Positions 58,486-63,511 of a stretch of DNA of 64,000 bases are shown in pieces. Numbering within the stretch: the first letter of the stretch is position 1; every line of letters begins with the position of its first letter. Source of the stretch: Seonamhaeicola sp. ML3 (GTDB lineage Bacteria; Bacteroidota; Bacteroidia; Flavobacteriales; Flavobacteriaceae). The notes beneath the pieces are model-generated. The model saw only the letters and a program-made list of their open reading frames with translations. It was not told the DNA's origin and did no database searches. The translations under genes and the position numbers were made by a program. The stretch is taken from assembly GCF_023273855.1 (NCBI RefSeq), contig NZ_CP096884.1, forward strand, positions 2,852,001 to 2,916,000, written 5' to 3'.

Positions 58486-59778
58486 TTACTTCAACAAAAA
58501 CGCCTTTAAATCTTCATAAGTAGAAATTACAACCGACTCCTTTTCTCTACCCATAACCTCTTGAATTTGTGCTGGTAGAGGCTGTTCTTCTTTAATTACT
58601 TTTTCAACCACATCTAAAAACTTGGTTGGGTGTGCTGTTTCCAAAAAGGCACAATGCGCATTTGGGTTGTCTTTTAAGTATGCTTTGCTTCCTAAGTAGC
58701 CAACGGCTCCATGTGGGTCTGCTACATAATTAAAGTCATTATGCATCTCCAACATGGCTTCTTTGGTCTCATCATCAGTGAAACTGAAAGAGGACACGTT
58801 TTCTTTTAGGTTTTCGAACTGATTTTTGTAAATTTCTTGGATACGAATAAAGTTACTTGGTGCTCCAACATCCATAGCGTTGCTGATAGTTTGGATTGAT
58901 GGTTTTGGTTCGTATAGTTGTGATTGTAAATAGCGCGTCACAACATTATTTACATTATTTGAAGCTATAAAATGTTTAATTGGTAGTCCTAGTTGTTGCG
59001 CCATCATACCTGCACAGATGTTTCCAAAGTTTCCGCTTGGCACCGAAAACACAATATCATCATAAGTTCTATGAAGCTGTTTATAGGCGAACATAAAATA
59101 GAACAATTGGGGCAACCAACGTGCTACATTGATAGAGTTGGCAGAGGTTAATTGCATTTTGCTTGTTAAAGCCTCATCTAAAAAGGCGGTTTTAACCATG
59201 GCTTGACAATCGTCAAAAGTGCCATTAACTTCTAAAGCTTTGATGTTTTGACCTAAAGTGGTTAACTGCTTCTCTTGAATATCACTTACTTTTCCGCTAG
59301 GGTAGAGTATCACTACATTAACACCTTTTACACCTAAAAAACCATTGGCTACAGCACCTCCAGTATCTCCAGAGGTAGCAACTAGAACAGTAACCTCATT
59401 ATCATTATCCTTGTTGAAATAGCCCAGGCATCTTGCCATAAAGCGTGCACCTACATCTTTAAACGCCATGGTTGGTCCATGGAACAATTCTAAAGTAGAA
59501 ATGTTGTCATTAAGTTTTACAACCGGAAACTCAAAAGACAAGGTCTCCTCTACAATAGTTCTTAATACATCTTCCGGAATTTCAGGATACACAAATTGTT
59601 TGATAGCCTCAAATGCTATTTCCGAGTTTGATAAACTATCTATATTTTTGAAAAAATCTTCAGATAAAGGTGTAATGCTTTCTGGAAAATACAATCCTTT
59701 GTCTGGCGCCAATCCTTTTACAACGGCGTTTTCAAATGTTGAATCTGGTGCTTGTTTATTTAATGAATAGTAGTTCAT
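58486..59778 (-). CDS. thrC: Threonine synthase
   Basis: Converts O-phospho-L-homoserine to L-threonine with pyridoxal phosphate, the last step of the pathway. The 430-aa protein has the PLP lysine in HGPTMAFKDVGARF (K107, the same number as in E. coli ThrC), VATSGDTGGAVANGF, and SVPSGNFGNICAGMM for phosphate binding. The N-terminus MNYYSLNKQAP matches the short, E. coli-like class. It follows thrB after two bases and closes the thrA-thrB-thrC operon. Confidence 0.96.
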   Translation of the reverse strand: MNYYSLNKQAPDSTFENAVVKGLAPDKGLYFPESITPLSEDFFKNIDSLSNSEIAFEAIKQFVYPEIPEDVLRTIVEETLSFEFPVVKLNDNISTLELFHGPTMAFKDVGARFMARCLGYFNKDNDNEVTVLVATSGDTGGAVANGFLGVKGVNVVILYPSGKVSDIQEKQLTTLGQNIKALEVNGTFDDCQAMVKTAFLDEALTSKMQLTSANSINVARWLPQLFYFMFAYKQLHRTYDDIVFSVPSGNFGNICAGMMAQQLGLPIKHFIASNNVNNVVTRYLQSQLYEPKPSIQTISNAMDVGAPSNFIRIQEIYKNQFENLKENVSSFSFTDDETKEAMLEMHNDFNYVADPHGAVGYLGSKAYLKDNPNAHCAFLETAHPTKFLDVVEKVIKEEQPLPAQIQEVMGREKESVVISTYEDLKAFLLK

Positions 59779-59780
59779 TT

Positions 59781-60704
59781 CTAATTCAATATTTTAATTC
59801 CTTGGGTATTAATTTTTGATACGTGAATATCAAAATCAATCCCTGTTTTAGAATATATTTTTTCTATAGCATCTTTCACATTTAATGCTGTTTCTTGTCC
59901 TTTACTTAGAGAAAAGATTGAAGGTCCAGAACCTGAAATACCAGAGCCTAAAGCCCCTGCATTTAAAGCTGCTTTTTTCACGTGGTTAAAATGAGGAATC
60001 AATTTGCTTCTATGTGGTTCTACAATCACGTCTTGCAACGAGCTTTTTATAACCTCATAATCGCCAGTATGCAGTCCATGAACCAAACCTCCAAGATTAG
60101 CCCATTGTTTAATGGCATCTTGTAATGATACTTCTTTTGGTAAAAGTGCTCTAGCATCAGCTGTTTTTATTTCAATCTGCGGATGTATTATTGTAGCATA
60201 CAAATCAATAGGTGAGGGAATTTCTAATATTTGCAATGGCGAAACACTTTTGGCTAATATGAACCCTCCAAAAATAGCTGGACCAATATTATCGGCATGT
60301 TCGCTTTTGCTAATAAACGCTTCACCTTTCATGGCAAACTCGGTTAATTCCGTTTTATTGAATGGTCTATTCAAAAGCTCATTCATGCCAAAAACACTAC
60401 CTACGGCACTTGCGGCACTACTGCCAATACCACTTCCTGGCTTGATTTTTTTATAGATTTCAATTTCAAAACCAAAATCGAGGTTAAGTGCCTCATACAT
60501 CGCTAAAGCTGAAATACCTGCAACATTTTTGTCTACCTCGTAAGGCAAATCAAATCCTTCAATCTTGCTAATGCGAATGCCTTTTTGGTCAATTTTTCTA
60601 ATGACCATTTCGTCACCAACATTATCGAGGCAAAAGCCCATGACGTCAAAACCACAAGACACGTTGGCAACTGTACCAGGAGAAAATATTTTTATTTCGT
60701 TCAT
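59781..60704 (-). CDS. thrB: Homoserine kinase
   Basis: A GHMP kinase that phosphorylates homoserine, about 307 aa with the chosen start. The N-terminal signature is IKIFSPGTVANVSCGFDVMG, the ATP loop is PGSGIGSSAASAVGSVFG (about 88-105) and the C-terminal GHMP motif is ALGSGISGSGPSIFSL. I prefer the ATG at 60704 (MNEIKIF), because family members begin directly at this point. An ATG 22 codons upstream (60770) is also open, and would add a non-conserved stretch (MELHKESD). It lies between thrA and thrC. Confidence 0.93.
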   Translation of the reverse strand: MNEIKIFSPGTVANVSCGFDVMGFCLDNVGDEMVIRKIDQKGIRISKIEGFDLPYEVDKNVAGISALAMYEALNLDFGFEIEIYKKIKPGSGIGSSAASAVGSVFGMNELLNRPFNKTELTEFAMKGEAFISKSEHADNIGPAIFGGFILAKSVSPLQILEIPSPIDLYATIIHPQIEIKTADARALLPKEVSLQDAIKQWANLGGLVHGLHTGDYEVIKSSLQDVIVEPHRSKLIPHFNHVKKAALNAGALGSGISGSGPSIFSLSKGQETALNVKDAIEKIYSKTGIDFDIHVSKINTQGIKILN

Positions 60705-60847
60705 TTTATCTATCAAATAACTTTCGGCTGCACTGGAGCAAGAAATATCACTTTCTTTATGTAATTCCATTTTTAGTATTCAGTTTTTCAGTAAGTATTA
60801 GTTAGCAGCTGTCTTTAACTTGGCTTATGCTTACTATCTCCTAAAAT

Positions 60848-63295
60848 TTAATCATTCCCTAACCGTATTATGTCCGCAAACAATCCAGAAGCTGTCACAT
60901 CGGCACCAGCACCAGCTCCTTTAATTATCATAGGTTGTTTAGGGTAACGCTCAGTATAGAACATTACAATATTATCACTTCCCTCTAAATTATAGAATGG
61001 ATGGCCTAAAGGGATTTCCTGTAAACTTACGCTAGCTTTACCTTCGTCAAATTTGGCAACATATTTTAATTGACAATTTTTTACTTTTGCAGAAGCGTAA
61101 AGACTTTGGTAATGCGCTTCATCTTGAATTAAAGTATCATAGAAATCATCAACCGTATCGCTTTTCAGACCAGCTTCTGACAGGAAAGAAGTATTTTCAA
61201 TATCCTCTAAGTTCATTTCAACACCACTTTCTCTAGCAAGAATTAAAATCTTTCTAGCAACATCTACACCACTTAAATCTATTCTTGGGTCTGGTTCTGT
61301 ATAACCTTCTGCTGCAGCTTGTTTTACAACATCGTAAAACTTAACTGTATCATTAAAGTTATTAAATACAAAGTTTAAACTCCCCGATAATACCGCTTGT
61401 ATGGAATTAACCTTATCACCAGAAGCAATCAAGTTATTTAAGGTGTCAATTACCGGTAAACCCGCGCCAACATTAGTTTCAAACAAGAATGGCGCATTGT
61501 ATTTAAGCGATAAACGCTTTAATTCTTTATAGTTTAAATAATCACTAGAACATGCAATTTTATTACAGGCTACAACAGAAATACTCTCTCTTAAATATTG
61601 AGCGTATAAGTCTGCTACATCTTTATTTGCAGTAACATCAACAAAAATACTGTTGCGTAGATTTAGTGATTTGGCCTTTTCGAAGAAGCCCTGTAACGAG
61701 GCTTGTTCTCCTTCTGCTAATTGCTCTTTCCATGATTTTAAGTCGATACCGCTTTGATCAAAAATCATTTTTCGTGAATTAGACAAACCAACAACACGCA
61801 TGCTAATTTTAAGGTTTTCCTTTAAATATTTACGCTGTTGCTTTATTTGTTCAACTAAACGCTCACCTACATTGCCTACTCCTGTAATAAATACATTGAG
61901 TTGTTTTGTTTTGGCTTCAAAAAATTGTTCGTGCAGTACGTTTAATGCTTTCTTTACATCATTTTCAGCGATAACCACAGAGATGTTTTTTTCTGAAGCA
62001 CCCTGAGCAATAGCTCTTACATTTACATTGTTTTTACCCAAAGCACTAAACAGCTTACCACTAATGCCCTGGTGATTTTTCATATTGTCTCCAACCAAAG
62101 CAACTATTGATAAATTGTTTTCAATAATTATTGGGTTTATTTTATGAAGCGCAATTTCGTTCTCAAACGTAGCATCAATGGCTTCTTTTGCAGCTTCAGC
62201 ATCTTTAGCTTCGATTCCTAAGCAAATAGAATGTTCTGAAGAGGCTTGCGTAATTAAAATAATATTGATTTTCTCTTGCGATAACGTTTCGAATAAACGC
62301 TTTGAAAACCCAGGAATACCAACCATACCGCTCCCTTCGAGCGTTAGCAATGAAATATTACCAATATTACTAATGCCCTTAACAGGTGTACTAGACTTTA
62401 AAGCATCATTAGAAATTTTAGTCCCAGGCGCTTCTGGCTCCAAAGTATTCTTGATATAAATCGGAATTTCTAAATCTAAAACTGGCTGAACTGTAGGTGG
62501 ATAAAGTACTTTTGCGCCAAAATGAGATAACTCCATGGCCTCTTGATACGAAATCTCCTGAATAGGATAAGCCTGTTTTACCATTTTGGGGTTAGTTGTA
62601 AACATACCGCTTACATCGGTCCAAATTTCTAATTGATTCACTTTTAATGCGGCAGCCACAATTGCAGCAGTAAAATCTGAACCACCGCGTCCTAAAGTTG
62701 TTTGTTCTCCAATAACAGATTTCGATACAAACCCCGGAAGAATTGTGATTTGTTGTGAAGCTGCACCAAAATAATCTTGAATATTTTTATTTGTGATACT
62801 ATAATTAACTTCTGCTTTCGTGAAAACCGAATTGGTAACCACAAGTTCTTGAGAATTTTTACGTTCAGCAGAGAGACCTCTACTTTTCATAGTTTCGGCA
62901 ATAATGAACGACGATAATAATTCACCGAAACTTACTAACTTATCAGATGTTTTAGGGGACAGTTCGTTAATCAAGAAAATACCGTTTAGCAAATTTTCTA
63001 GCTCCTCTAATTTTTCACTAACCACAGGGGCGATAGCAGACCCATCATCATCAGGATTTAATTCATAAATTATATCAAAGTGAATTTTAGCTATTTCTTC
63101 AAAAGTCTCTGTATAAGACTTGTCTTTGTTCTGTGCTTGTTTACCAGCTAAAAGTAACTTGTCGGTTATACCGCCAACTGCAGAAACCACACATATTACA
63201 GTATCACTTTTAGAATAATCTTCTAAAATATTTATAACGTTATTTATGTTTTTTGAAGAACCTACAGAAGTTCCTCCAAATTTTAAAACCTTCAT
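60848..63295 (-). CDS. thrA: Bifunctional aspartate kinase / homoserine dehydrogenase
   Basis: An 815-aa fusion that catalyses the first and third steps from aspartate to threonine. The kinase half (about 1-300) begins MKVLKFGGTSVGSSKNI and has TLGRGGSDFTAA. Two ACT domains (about 310-455) include GMVGIPGFSKRLFETLSQEK and VALVGDNMKNHQGISGKLFS; these sense threonine in related enzymes. The dehydrogenase half (about 465-815) begins VFITGVGNVGERLVEQI and holds SVVACNKIACS, LFETNVGAGLP and GYTEPDPRIDLSG. It is the first structural gene of the operon and lies 82 bases behind the threonine leader peptide. Confidence 0.97.
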   Translation of the reverse strand: MKVLKFGGTSVGSSKNINNVINILEDYSKSDTVICVVSAVGGITDKLLLAGKQAQNKDKSYTETFEEIAKIHFDIIYELNPDDDGSAIAPVVSEKLEELENLLNGIFLINELSPKTSDKLVSFGELLSSFIIAETMKSRGLSAERKNSQELVVTNSVFTKAEVNYSITNKNIQDYFGAASQQITILPGFVSKSVIGEQTTLGRGGSDFTAAIVAAALKVNQLEIWTDVSGMFTTNPKMVKQAYPIQEISYQEAMELSHFGAKVLYPPTVQPVLDLEIPIYIKNTLEPEAPGTKISNDALKSSTPVKGISNIGNISLLTLEGSGMVGIPGFSKRLFETLSQEKINIILITQASSEHSICLGIEAKDAEAAKEAIDATFENEIALHKINPIIIENNLSIVALVGDNMKNHQGISGKLFSALGKNNVNVRAIAQGASEKNISVVIAENDVKKALNVLHEQFFEAKTKQLNVFITGVGNVGERLVEQIKQQRKYLKENLKISMRVVGLSNSRKMIFDQSGIDLKSWKEQLAEGEQASLQGFFEKAKSLNLRNSIFVDVTANKDVADLYAQYLRESISVVACNKIACSSDYLNYKELKRLSLKYNAPFLFETNVGAGLPVIDTLNNLIASGDKVNSIQAVLSGSLNFVFNNFNDTVKFYDVVKQAAAEGYTEPDPRIDLSGVDVARKILILARESGVEMNLEDIENTSFLSEAGLKSDTVDDFYDTLIQDEAHYQSLYASAKVKNCQLKYVAKFDEGKASVSLQEIPLGHPFYNLEGSDNIVMFYTERYPKQPMIIKGAGAGADVTASGLFADIIRLGND

Positions 63296-63331
63296 TTTTT
63301 AATGAATTGATAATTGAAAATATATTTTGAG

Positions 63332-63355
63332 TTGTGATTGATATAGAAACCACAA
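63332..63355 (-). promoter_or_regulatory. Hairpin between the thr leader and thrA
   Basis: On the minus strand TTGTGGTT pairs with AATCACAA (one G-U pair, formed only in the minus-strand RNA) around an eight-base loop. It lies between the leader stop and thrA. No U-run follows directly, so it is not a classical terminator; a role as an attenuation or translation-control structure is possible. Confidence 0.3.
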
Positions 63356-63377
63356 AAATAGCCTGAAGTATATATTA

Positions 63378-63482
63378 TTAACAACCCCAAAGGGTAGTCG
63401 TTGTAGTAGTACCAATGAAAGAAGTCGTTCCTTTAGAAAAAGAAGCGGAAACAAATCTTGTATTTTGGTCTAAATGGTTCAT
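63378..63482 (-). CDS. Threonine operon leader peptide
   Basis: A 34-codon ORF read from the complement: ATG at 63482, TAA at 63378. It begins MNHLDQNTRF and ends IGTTTTTTLWGC, with six consecutive Thr codons (ACT ACT ACA ACG ACT ACC, using all four Thr codons) and nine Thr in 34 residues. It lies 82 bases upstream of thrA and starts about 15 bases behind a predicted transcription start. This is the layout of a leader peptide at which ribosomes pause when charged Thr-tRNA is scarce, as for E. coli thrL. The sequence is not related to the E. coli peptide, so the match is by design only. An ORF on the opposite strand here is the shadow. Confidence 0.85.
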   Translation of the reverse strand: MNHLDQNTRFVSASFSKGTTSFIGTTTTTTLWGC

Positions 63483-63503
63483 AAAAGCTATGATAATGCA
63501 AGC

Positions 63504-63511
63504 CAAAAGTA
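63504..63511 (-). promoter_or_regulatory. -7 box of the thr leader/thrABC operon
   Basis: TACTTTTG on the minus strand fits TAnnTTTG. It places the transcription start near 63497, just before the leader ATG at 63482. The -33 region is T-rich without a perfect TTTG. Confidence 0.5.

Follow-up and report, generated by a model that had tools for sequence, protein, structure and literature searches.

A candidate threonine leader peptide upstream of thrABC in Seonamhaeicola sp. ML3 and other Bacteroidota, without a detected intrinsic terminator in the window

The thrABC genes of Seonamhaeicola sp. ML3 are preceded by a short open reading frame (ORF) with six consecutive Thr codons which, judged from its sequence and those of its relatives, appears to encode a real and deeply conserved threonine leader peptide. 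The ribosome translating this leader very probably senses Thr/Ile charging. We further propose that thrABC is controlled by a ribosome-sensed threonine (plus isoleucine) attenuator whose readout is not an intrinsic terminator but Rho, a tentative reading that falls a little short of an even balance. The relevant features lie in a 64-kb stretch of DNA from this organism (the window), all on the minus strand:

63504-63511, minus strand: -7 element TACTTTTG (TAnnTTTG) of the leader promoter, assigned from sequence and conservation
63378-63482, minus strand: putative threonine leader ORF, 34 aa plus stop, ending GTTTTTTLWGC*, assigned from sequence, frame conserved
63393-63410, minus strand: six consecutive Thr codons, putatively regulatory; relatives mix Thr, Ile and Asn
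63380-63399, minus strand: hairpin P1, core ACCC-UUUG-GGGU (63395-63384), -7.7 kcal/mol including its extension
63361-63375, minus strand: conserved motif M (AUAUAUACUUCAGGC), whose AUAU begins 9 nt past the last G of P1
63332-63355, minus strand: hairpin P2, 8 bp with no U run after it, -5.9 kcal/mol, z -4.3, with covariation
63296-63334, minus strand: G-free stretch up to the thrA start, of rut-like composition, 0 G in 39
60848-63295, minus strand: thrA, fused aspartokinase-homoserine dehydrogenase, 815 aa, named from sequence and operon order
59781-60770, minus strand: thrB-like homoserine kinase ORF, named from operon order and sequence
58486-59778, minus strand: thrC-like threonine synthase ORF, named from operon order and sequence

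The leader ORF reads MNHLDQNTRFVSASFSKGTTSFIGTTTTTTLWGC* from an ATG at 63482-63480 to a stop at 63380-63378 (minus strand), 82 nt from the thrA ATG at 63295; the automatic ORF list shows a 42-aa version in which an upstream TTG is taken as the start. A preliminary description of this DNA had reported a 34-codon ORF with six Thr codons in a row, 82 bases upstream of thrA and behind a TAnnTTTG promoter, and had called it a threonine leader peptide. Its coordinates proved exact, distance and promoter were confirmed, and the identification is supported by the deep conservation of Thr/Ile codons, frame and promoter. Across six frames of the 64 kb, the leader holds the only run of at least six Thr; one run of five occurs elsewhere.

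Relatives were drawn from 381 thrA-encoding stretches, one genome per species, of which the best 80 are the named loci (mostly Flavobacteriaceae, by their titles) and form, with the window, the main comparison set of 81 loci. Loci, genomes and Bacteroidota families carry L-, G- and f-numbers, respectively, and related sequences in the counts and tests are not independent of each other. The comparison of thrA upstream regions that the preliminary description had suggested bore out the leader. In the window plus the best 80 of 381, Thr and Ile together fill five or more of the nine codons that end at the ACC of P1 in 73/78 loci, and Thr alone does so in 58/78. The leader frame has no stop within the 26 codons before P1 in any of 78 loci (the window and 77 relatives from the best 80 of 381), as against 65/78 and 35/78 with a stop in the other two frames of the same stretch. 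In this set the leader stop lies 82 nt from the ATG in 34/78 and 79-86 nt in at least 66/78; the authors of a study of leader genes state, in the accessible part of the article, that the stop-to-gene distance in attenuators is not under stabilising selection (PMC4833913). TAnnTTTG occurs 85-130 nt upstream of P1 in 76/78 (window plus best 80 of 381, window included), and the two misses, L024 and L035, are extracted stretches too short to reach the box. By analogy with Flavobacterium johnsoniae, as described in the available part of PMC6847099, transcription may start about 4-5 nt downstream of the promoter box.

The start position is GTG in two relatives (L027 and L029). Diversity at the three codon positions in the middle of the leader is about equal (0.53, 0.55 and 0.49), so third positions are no more variable than the others; the frame is kept, but by this measure there is no hint that the peptide is selected beyond its Thr run. 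No leader was seen in L064 and L076, and that of L002 lies about 190 nt further upstream of thrA. As a separate observation, in L002, L024, L035 and genome G389 about 65-190 additional nt separate the start of thrA from the leader module, and no Rfam match was listed for L035. A second TAnnTTTG-like box is found inside the leader, 20-40 nt before ACCC, in 34/78 loci (window plus best 80 of 381) and is absent from the window; it may act as a promoter within the leader or have arisen by chance in sequence so rich in A and T.

P1, which the preliminary description did not contain, takes in the final Thr codon as well as LWG and the stop codon, and it looks like a protector or pause-type hairpin. 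It lies within 260 nt of thrA in 78/81 loci (window plus best 80 of 381), the exceptions being L064, L076 and L002. The preliminary description had regarded the LW end of the peptide as a feature to look for in relatives. As peptide it is indeed frequent, with TLWG or TPWG plus 0-1 residue following from the last Thr codon in 71/78 (window plus best 80 of 381), but the better account is that it forms the 3' side of an RNA hairpin: ACCC-GUUU-GGGU persists in L080 and L081 while the codons are shifted to TRLG, which indicates that the P1 helix outlives the peptide.

Two wider samples extend P1 beyond the close relatives. The first comprised 60 upstream regions, picked by hand and mostly from better matches, out of 152 ThrA-matching genomes (158 searched). 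The ACCC...GGG form was present in 21 (families f1, f2, f4 and f21), and four from family f8 had ACGGGGU-type ends, among them L105, L106 and L111 with an inverted, self-complementary ACGGG...CCCGU hairpin (f8 form ACGGG-GURA-CCCGU). Six were of another type by eye (L103, L107, L109, L110, L112 and L126), combining a leader that contains Thr codons with a strong hairpin close to thrA. In the remaining 29 of these 60 regions we recognised no Thr leader. The second sample, 20 more regions from 47 genomes of the class with a strong match (197 searched), yielded P1- or f8-type loci L229, L230, L233 and L238, L225 with P1 plus a terminator, and L235 of the f3 terminator type; in 14 of these 20 regions no Thr leader was recognised. 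The leader stop codon sits inside the P1 loop in 14/21 distant ACCC-type loci, and also in L225, L238, L105, L106 and L111. P1 is under constraint as RNA: recoding leaves the helix intact, f8 carries it inverted, and the stop codon often lies within its loop. Family f21 belongs to another class than the window, so the arrangement of P1 and leader is either old or arose repeatedly.

The single locus L225 (f9) bears on the role of P1. Its leader ends in ACCCGG-UAA-CCGGG, followed by a strong, full terminator (by eye) with a 5' arm, GCAGCCCG, complementary to the 3' arm of P1, CCGGGCUGC (also by eye). This is the textbook 1:2, 2:3, 3:4 layout, and P1 elsewhere is thus best read as a 1:2 hairpin, one that would hold its place while the terminator was lost or never gained.

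Downstream of P1, AUAU occurs within 6-18 nt of the hairpin in 66/76 named loci from the best 80 of 381 (shuffle mean 15.3, at most 28) and in 19/21 distant loci (shuffle mean 3.1, at most 10); the shuffles kept composition, and L024, L035 and the three loci without P1 were left out. In the his and trp leaders of E. coli, the polymerase pause has its 3' end some 11-12 nt beyond the 1:2 hairpin. This is roughly the location of AUAU, and by this analogy we infer that AUAU is a pause site.

The weaker hairpin that the preliminary description had placed at 63332-63355 exists and is P2. In the named loci (best 80 of 381) it mostly lies 26-30 nt after GGGGTT and 36-41 nt before the ATG, with many sequences forming one shape of about -2 to -9 kcal/mol where found; it is absent or not recognisable in L069, L073, L074, L075, L077 and L079. 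In an alignment of 36 sequences, in which the window row is about three columns out of register at P2, 91.4% of the P1 and P2 cells are paired and the covariation score is 0.173, which none of 500 shuffles reached and slid versions of the structure did not approach (at most 0.058). One of the five measures was not beyond shuffles: five P1 and P2 pairs are changed on both sides, and 55/500 shuffles were as high. Placed on the thrA tree with the window left out, P2 shows six simultaneous pair-to-pair changes, one change from pair to mismatch and 46 one-sided changes. A covariance model of P1, M and P2 gave a single match in each of 45/199 genomes of the family at E <= 0.001 and none in the others, under search filters by which weak matches are missed; each of the 45 is located at thrA, either across its start or upstream of it by 24 nt (G343) or 88 nt (G389).

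No alternative, antiterminator-like pairing emerged: the P1 3' arm paired with the spacer no better than with a shuffled spacer. When motif M was matched against thrA codons 5-11 or the P1 3' arm, cognate partners paired no better than swapped ones, a comparison of little power because the partners are nearly invariant.

The preliminary description had noted the absence of a classical attenuator terminator between leader and thrA, and this observation holds. A single uniform scan over all thr, his, trp and ilv regions matched an intrinsic terminator in 1/78 thr loci (window plus best 80 of 381) and none in the window; the one match, in L062, is its P2, weak at -6.1 kcal/mol. Among distant P1- or f8-type loci there were matches in 3/25, all weak and all P1 itself. 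The same scan matched 15/20 his, 16/20 trp and 6/20 ilv regions; it misses terminators with long loops, as in the trp regions L188 and L190, which look terminator-like by eye. It also matched 5/6 of the other-type thr loci (4/4 in f3), which shows merely that the scan works, since these loci were picked by eye for their terminator look.

The control operons carry their own leaders. In 20/20 his regions (own genome and 19 picked by hand), the leading candidate was a short ORF rich in His, and WWW leaders were found upstream of trpE in 17/20. In the genome of the window, the his leader MTFIQLHHHFHICSQAK (L159, G000:C1:2963548-2964278) and the trp leader ...NNTWWWCSRN (L191, G000:C1:214325-215055) are each followed by a strong terminator with a U run. 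Their complementary leader segments measure 9 bp for his, a length reached by 0.6% of shuffles, and 7 bp for trp, the latter a weak control because 24% of shuffles reach it. With classical his and trp leaders of its own, the organism appears to use classical attenuation, to which the thr leader is an exception. No ilv leader was seen in the window's own genome. Separately, Ile/Val-rich leaders with terminators occur before ilvD in some f1 and f21 genomes (L163, L167, L169, L177, L180 and L182).

P2 (or P1) could be an intrinsic terminator of an unusual kind, active in these bacteria with no U run next to it, which we consider improbable. P2 covaries and is nearly fixed in place, many loci have a U-rich patch 10-20 nt past it, and a short U patch follows three distant P1 hairpins; however, P2 is weak and not recognisable in six loci, and standard terminators serve his and trp in the same genome. 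Far less credible still is a leader that no longer regulates, a decayed classical attenuator that has lost its terminator. The absence of the terminator, the loci L064 and L076 without a leader and the many distant genomes in which none was recognised would suit such decay, but in relatives selection still acts on the frame, Thr codons, P1, AUAU and P2, and in other families and another class it also acts on P1 and AUAU.

A different readout, for which the preliminary description had named Rho-dependent or translational mechanisms, is therefore well supported as a negative statement; as to which one, composition leans towards Rho, and a fold test gives occlusion of the start site no support. 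The last 39 nt before thrA contain at most one G in 61/76 named loci (best 80 of 381), against 1/17 other intergenic gene fronts of the window, and C exceeds G before thrA in 76/76 of these loci against 11/17 control fronts. In a paired test over 18 distant genomes, with approximate gene starts, the thr tails have 3.5 G per 45 nt and the his, ilv and trp tails of the same genomes 5.35 (p 0.016); C was not significantly higher in that test (p 0.16), and several of its Flavobacteriaceae are not G-poor (5-6 G). Rut sites are YC-rich and unstructured with a high C:G ratio, according to the accessible part of PMC12121999, and a rho gene is present in the genome. P2 interrupts the G-poor stretch after the leader, and low G before a start codon also suits translation start.

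Rho-dependent termination is our best guess for the readout, held with slightly less than even confidence, and translational control comes second. The relatives keep both order and spacing of promoter, open leader frame, P1, AUAU, P2, G-poor tract and thrA, and a mechanism is proposed on this basis. With charged tRNA-Thr, the leader ribosome would reach the stop codon in or behind P1 and then leave. P1 would close behind a polymerase paused at AUAU, at about the 3' end expected of a hairpin-stabilised pause, and the ribosome-free, G-poor stretch of 82 nt would let Rho load and end transcription at the thrA start. When Thr is short, a ribosome parked on the Thr codons would cover the 5' arm of P1, so that P1 would stay open and transcription would continue. 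The Rho step, and how a parked ribosome would prevent it, are the least certain parts. A ribosome parked far behind the polymerase would not alone stop Rho, and because the P1 3' arm has no alternative pairing above shuffle, the Rho model leaves the action of the open state without explanation. The many genomes of the phylum without a recognised Thr leader (29/60 and 14/20) also count against it.

Translational attenuation, where the position of the leader ribosome would alter access to the thrA start as in erm-type leaders, is unlikely on balance. It would account for the missing terminator and the conserved stop-to-start distance, and it gains from the lower synonymous variation of thrA codons 2-20 (0.38 at fourfold sites, n=7, vs 0.62, n=25) and from a hairpin at codons 7-14. 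The predicted accessibility of the thrA start, however, is equal in the free, stalled and at-stop states (0.48-0.49; a thermodynamic folding model and a weak test), and in most loci P2 stops some 36-41 nt short of the AUG, leaving the start uncovered.

Readout by Rho may have a parallel at his. In the f21 his leaders L143, L145, L160 and L162 no terminator was found, and the stop codon sits in a hairpin loop; three of these hairpins were folded (-3.8 to -4.9 kcal/mol) and the fourth was identified by eye. The his tails have 0-1 G in 45 nt and are pyrimidine-rich up to hisG, against 5-13 G for the ilv and trp tails of the same genomes. These leaders are of the same style as the thr leader. Bacteroidota might, as a doubtful generalisation, possess a second, terminator-free class of amino-acid attenuator, with P1 holding the leader end (often the stop), an AUAU pause at a nearly constant distance, a G-poor tract and readout by Rho, used for thr in several families and for his in f21 beside classical attenuators.

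Leader-peptide attenuation is a textbook mechanism, and the thr leader of E. coli has a 1:2-type hairpin at its end. The window leader resembles the enterobacterial Thr_leader (RF00506, E. coli thrL) in its Thr/Ile-rich ORF directly before thrA, its clustered regulatory codons and a hairpin (P1) at the leader end; it differs in having no terminator and no detected antiterminator. RF00506 did not match the window, nor the P1-type loci among 20 loci scanned. Sub-threshold matches in L103, L109 and L112 (f3; 31.7-36.5 bits against a 55-bit cut-off) show that the classical form exists elsewhere in the phylum. With terminator, antiterminator and model match all failing, the element is classed here as a leader-peptide attenuator by function and not as a member of RF00506. 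An Rfam match to ACEA_U3 in the window (18 bits, E 0.67) was rejected as chance. The organism's own his and trp leaders likewise have short leaders with cognate codons before the operon; unlike the thr leader, they have strong terminators with U runs and complementary segments.

Other leaders, too, act without an intrinsic terminator. The E. coli tnaC leader is Rho-dependent: its short ORF controls premature termination with no intrinsic terminator involved, and it senses free Trp at its stop codon. The short upstream ORF of toiL-topAI likewise governs early Rho-dependent termination; toiL senses ribosome-targeting antibiotics and acts via topAI translation, as given in the accessible text of PMC12121999. 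Neither leader senses uncharged tRNA for the product of its operon. Mycobacterial poly-Cys leaders before cys operons share the amino-acid run and the lack of a terminator, and their authors suggest Rho; the pyrimidine motifs there lack conservation, and in the authors' own words the prediction is "rather weak" (PMC1262725, in the part available). In the thr leader, by comparison, hairpins, motif and spacing are conserved.

Our literature search found no description of a Bacteroidota threonine leader; subscription papers lay largely outside its scope. Lopatovskaya et al. (2010) reportedly may list Bacteroidetes attenuators. In the accessible portion of a B. thetaiotaomicron transcriptome study, some long 5' UTRs have short ORFs reminiscent of leader peptides (PMC7366714), and the accessible portion of a 2021 study on his genes of the superphylum does not use the word "leader" (PMC8305728). 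Candidate thr, his, trp and ilv leaders occur in various genomes of the Bacteroidota, and the one for thr lacks the very element by which the classical readout is defined. One genome with one sensor logic and, as it appears, two outputs would be a natural experiment on how a stalled ribosome signals to RNA polymerase in Bacteroidota.

The hairpin at thrA codons 7-14 (63255-63276, minus strand) has 9 bp and -9.1 kcal/mol. Wobble bases favor it (Gly8 is GGA in 68/79 and Gly12 is GGT in 72/79), and its base 20 with base 39 forms AT in 40, TG in 11, CG in 10 and other combinations in 20 of 81 loci; on the tree it shows four simultaneous pair-to-pair changes against 28 one-sided ones. Outside the window, the genome holds a second aspartokinase-homoserine dehydrogenase-like paralogue (G000:C1:1839066-1841465), which shows 35% identity and lies in an open frame 1142 codons long. 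Paralogues similar to this second copy are listed in many genomes of the family, and in the second-aspartokinase paralogues of Flavobacteriaceae the motif differs from the thrA codon 7-14 hairpin.
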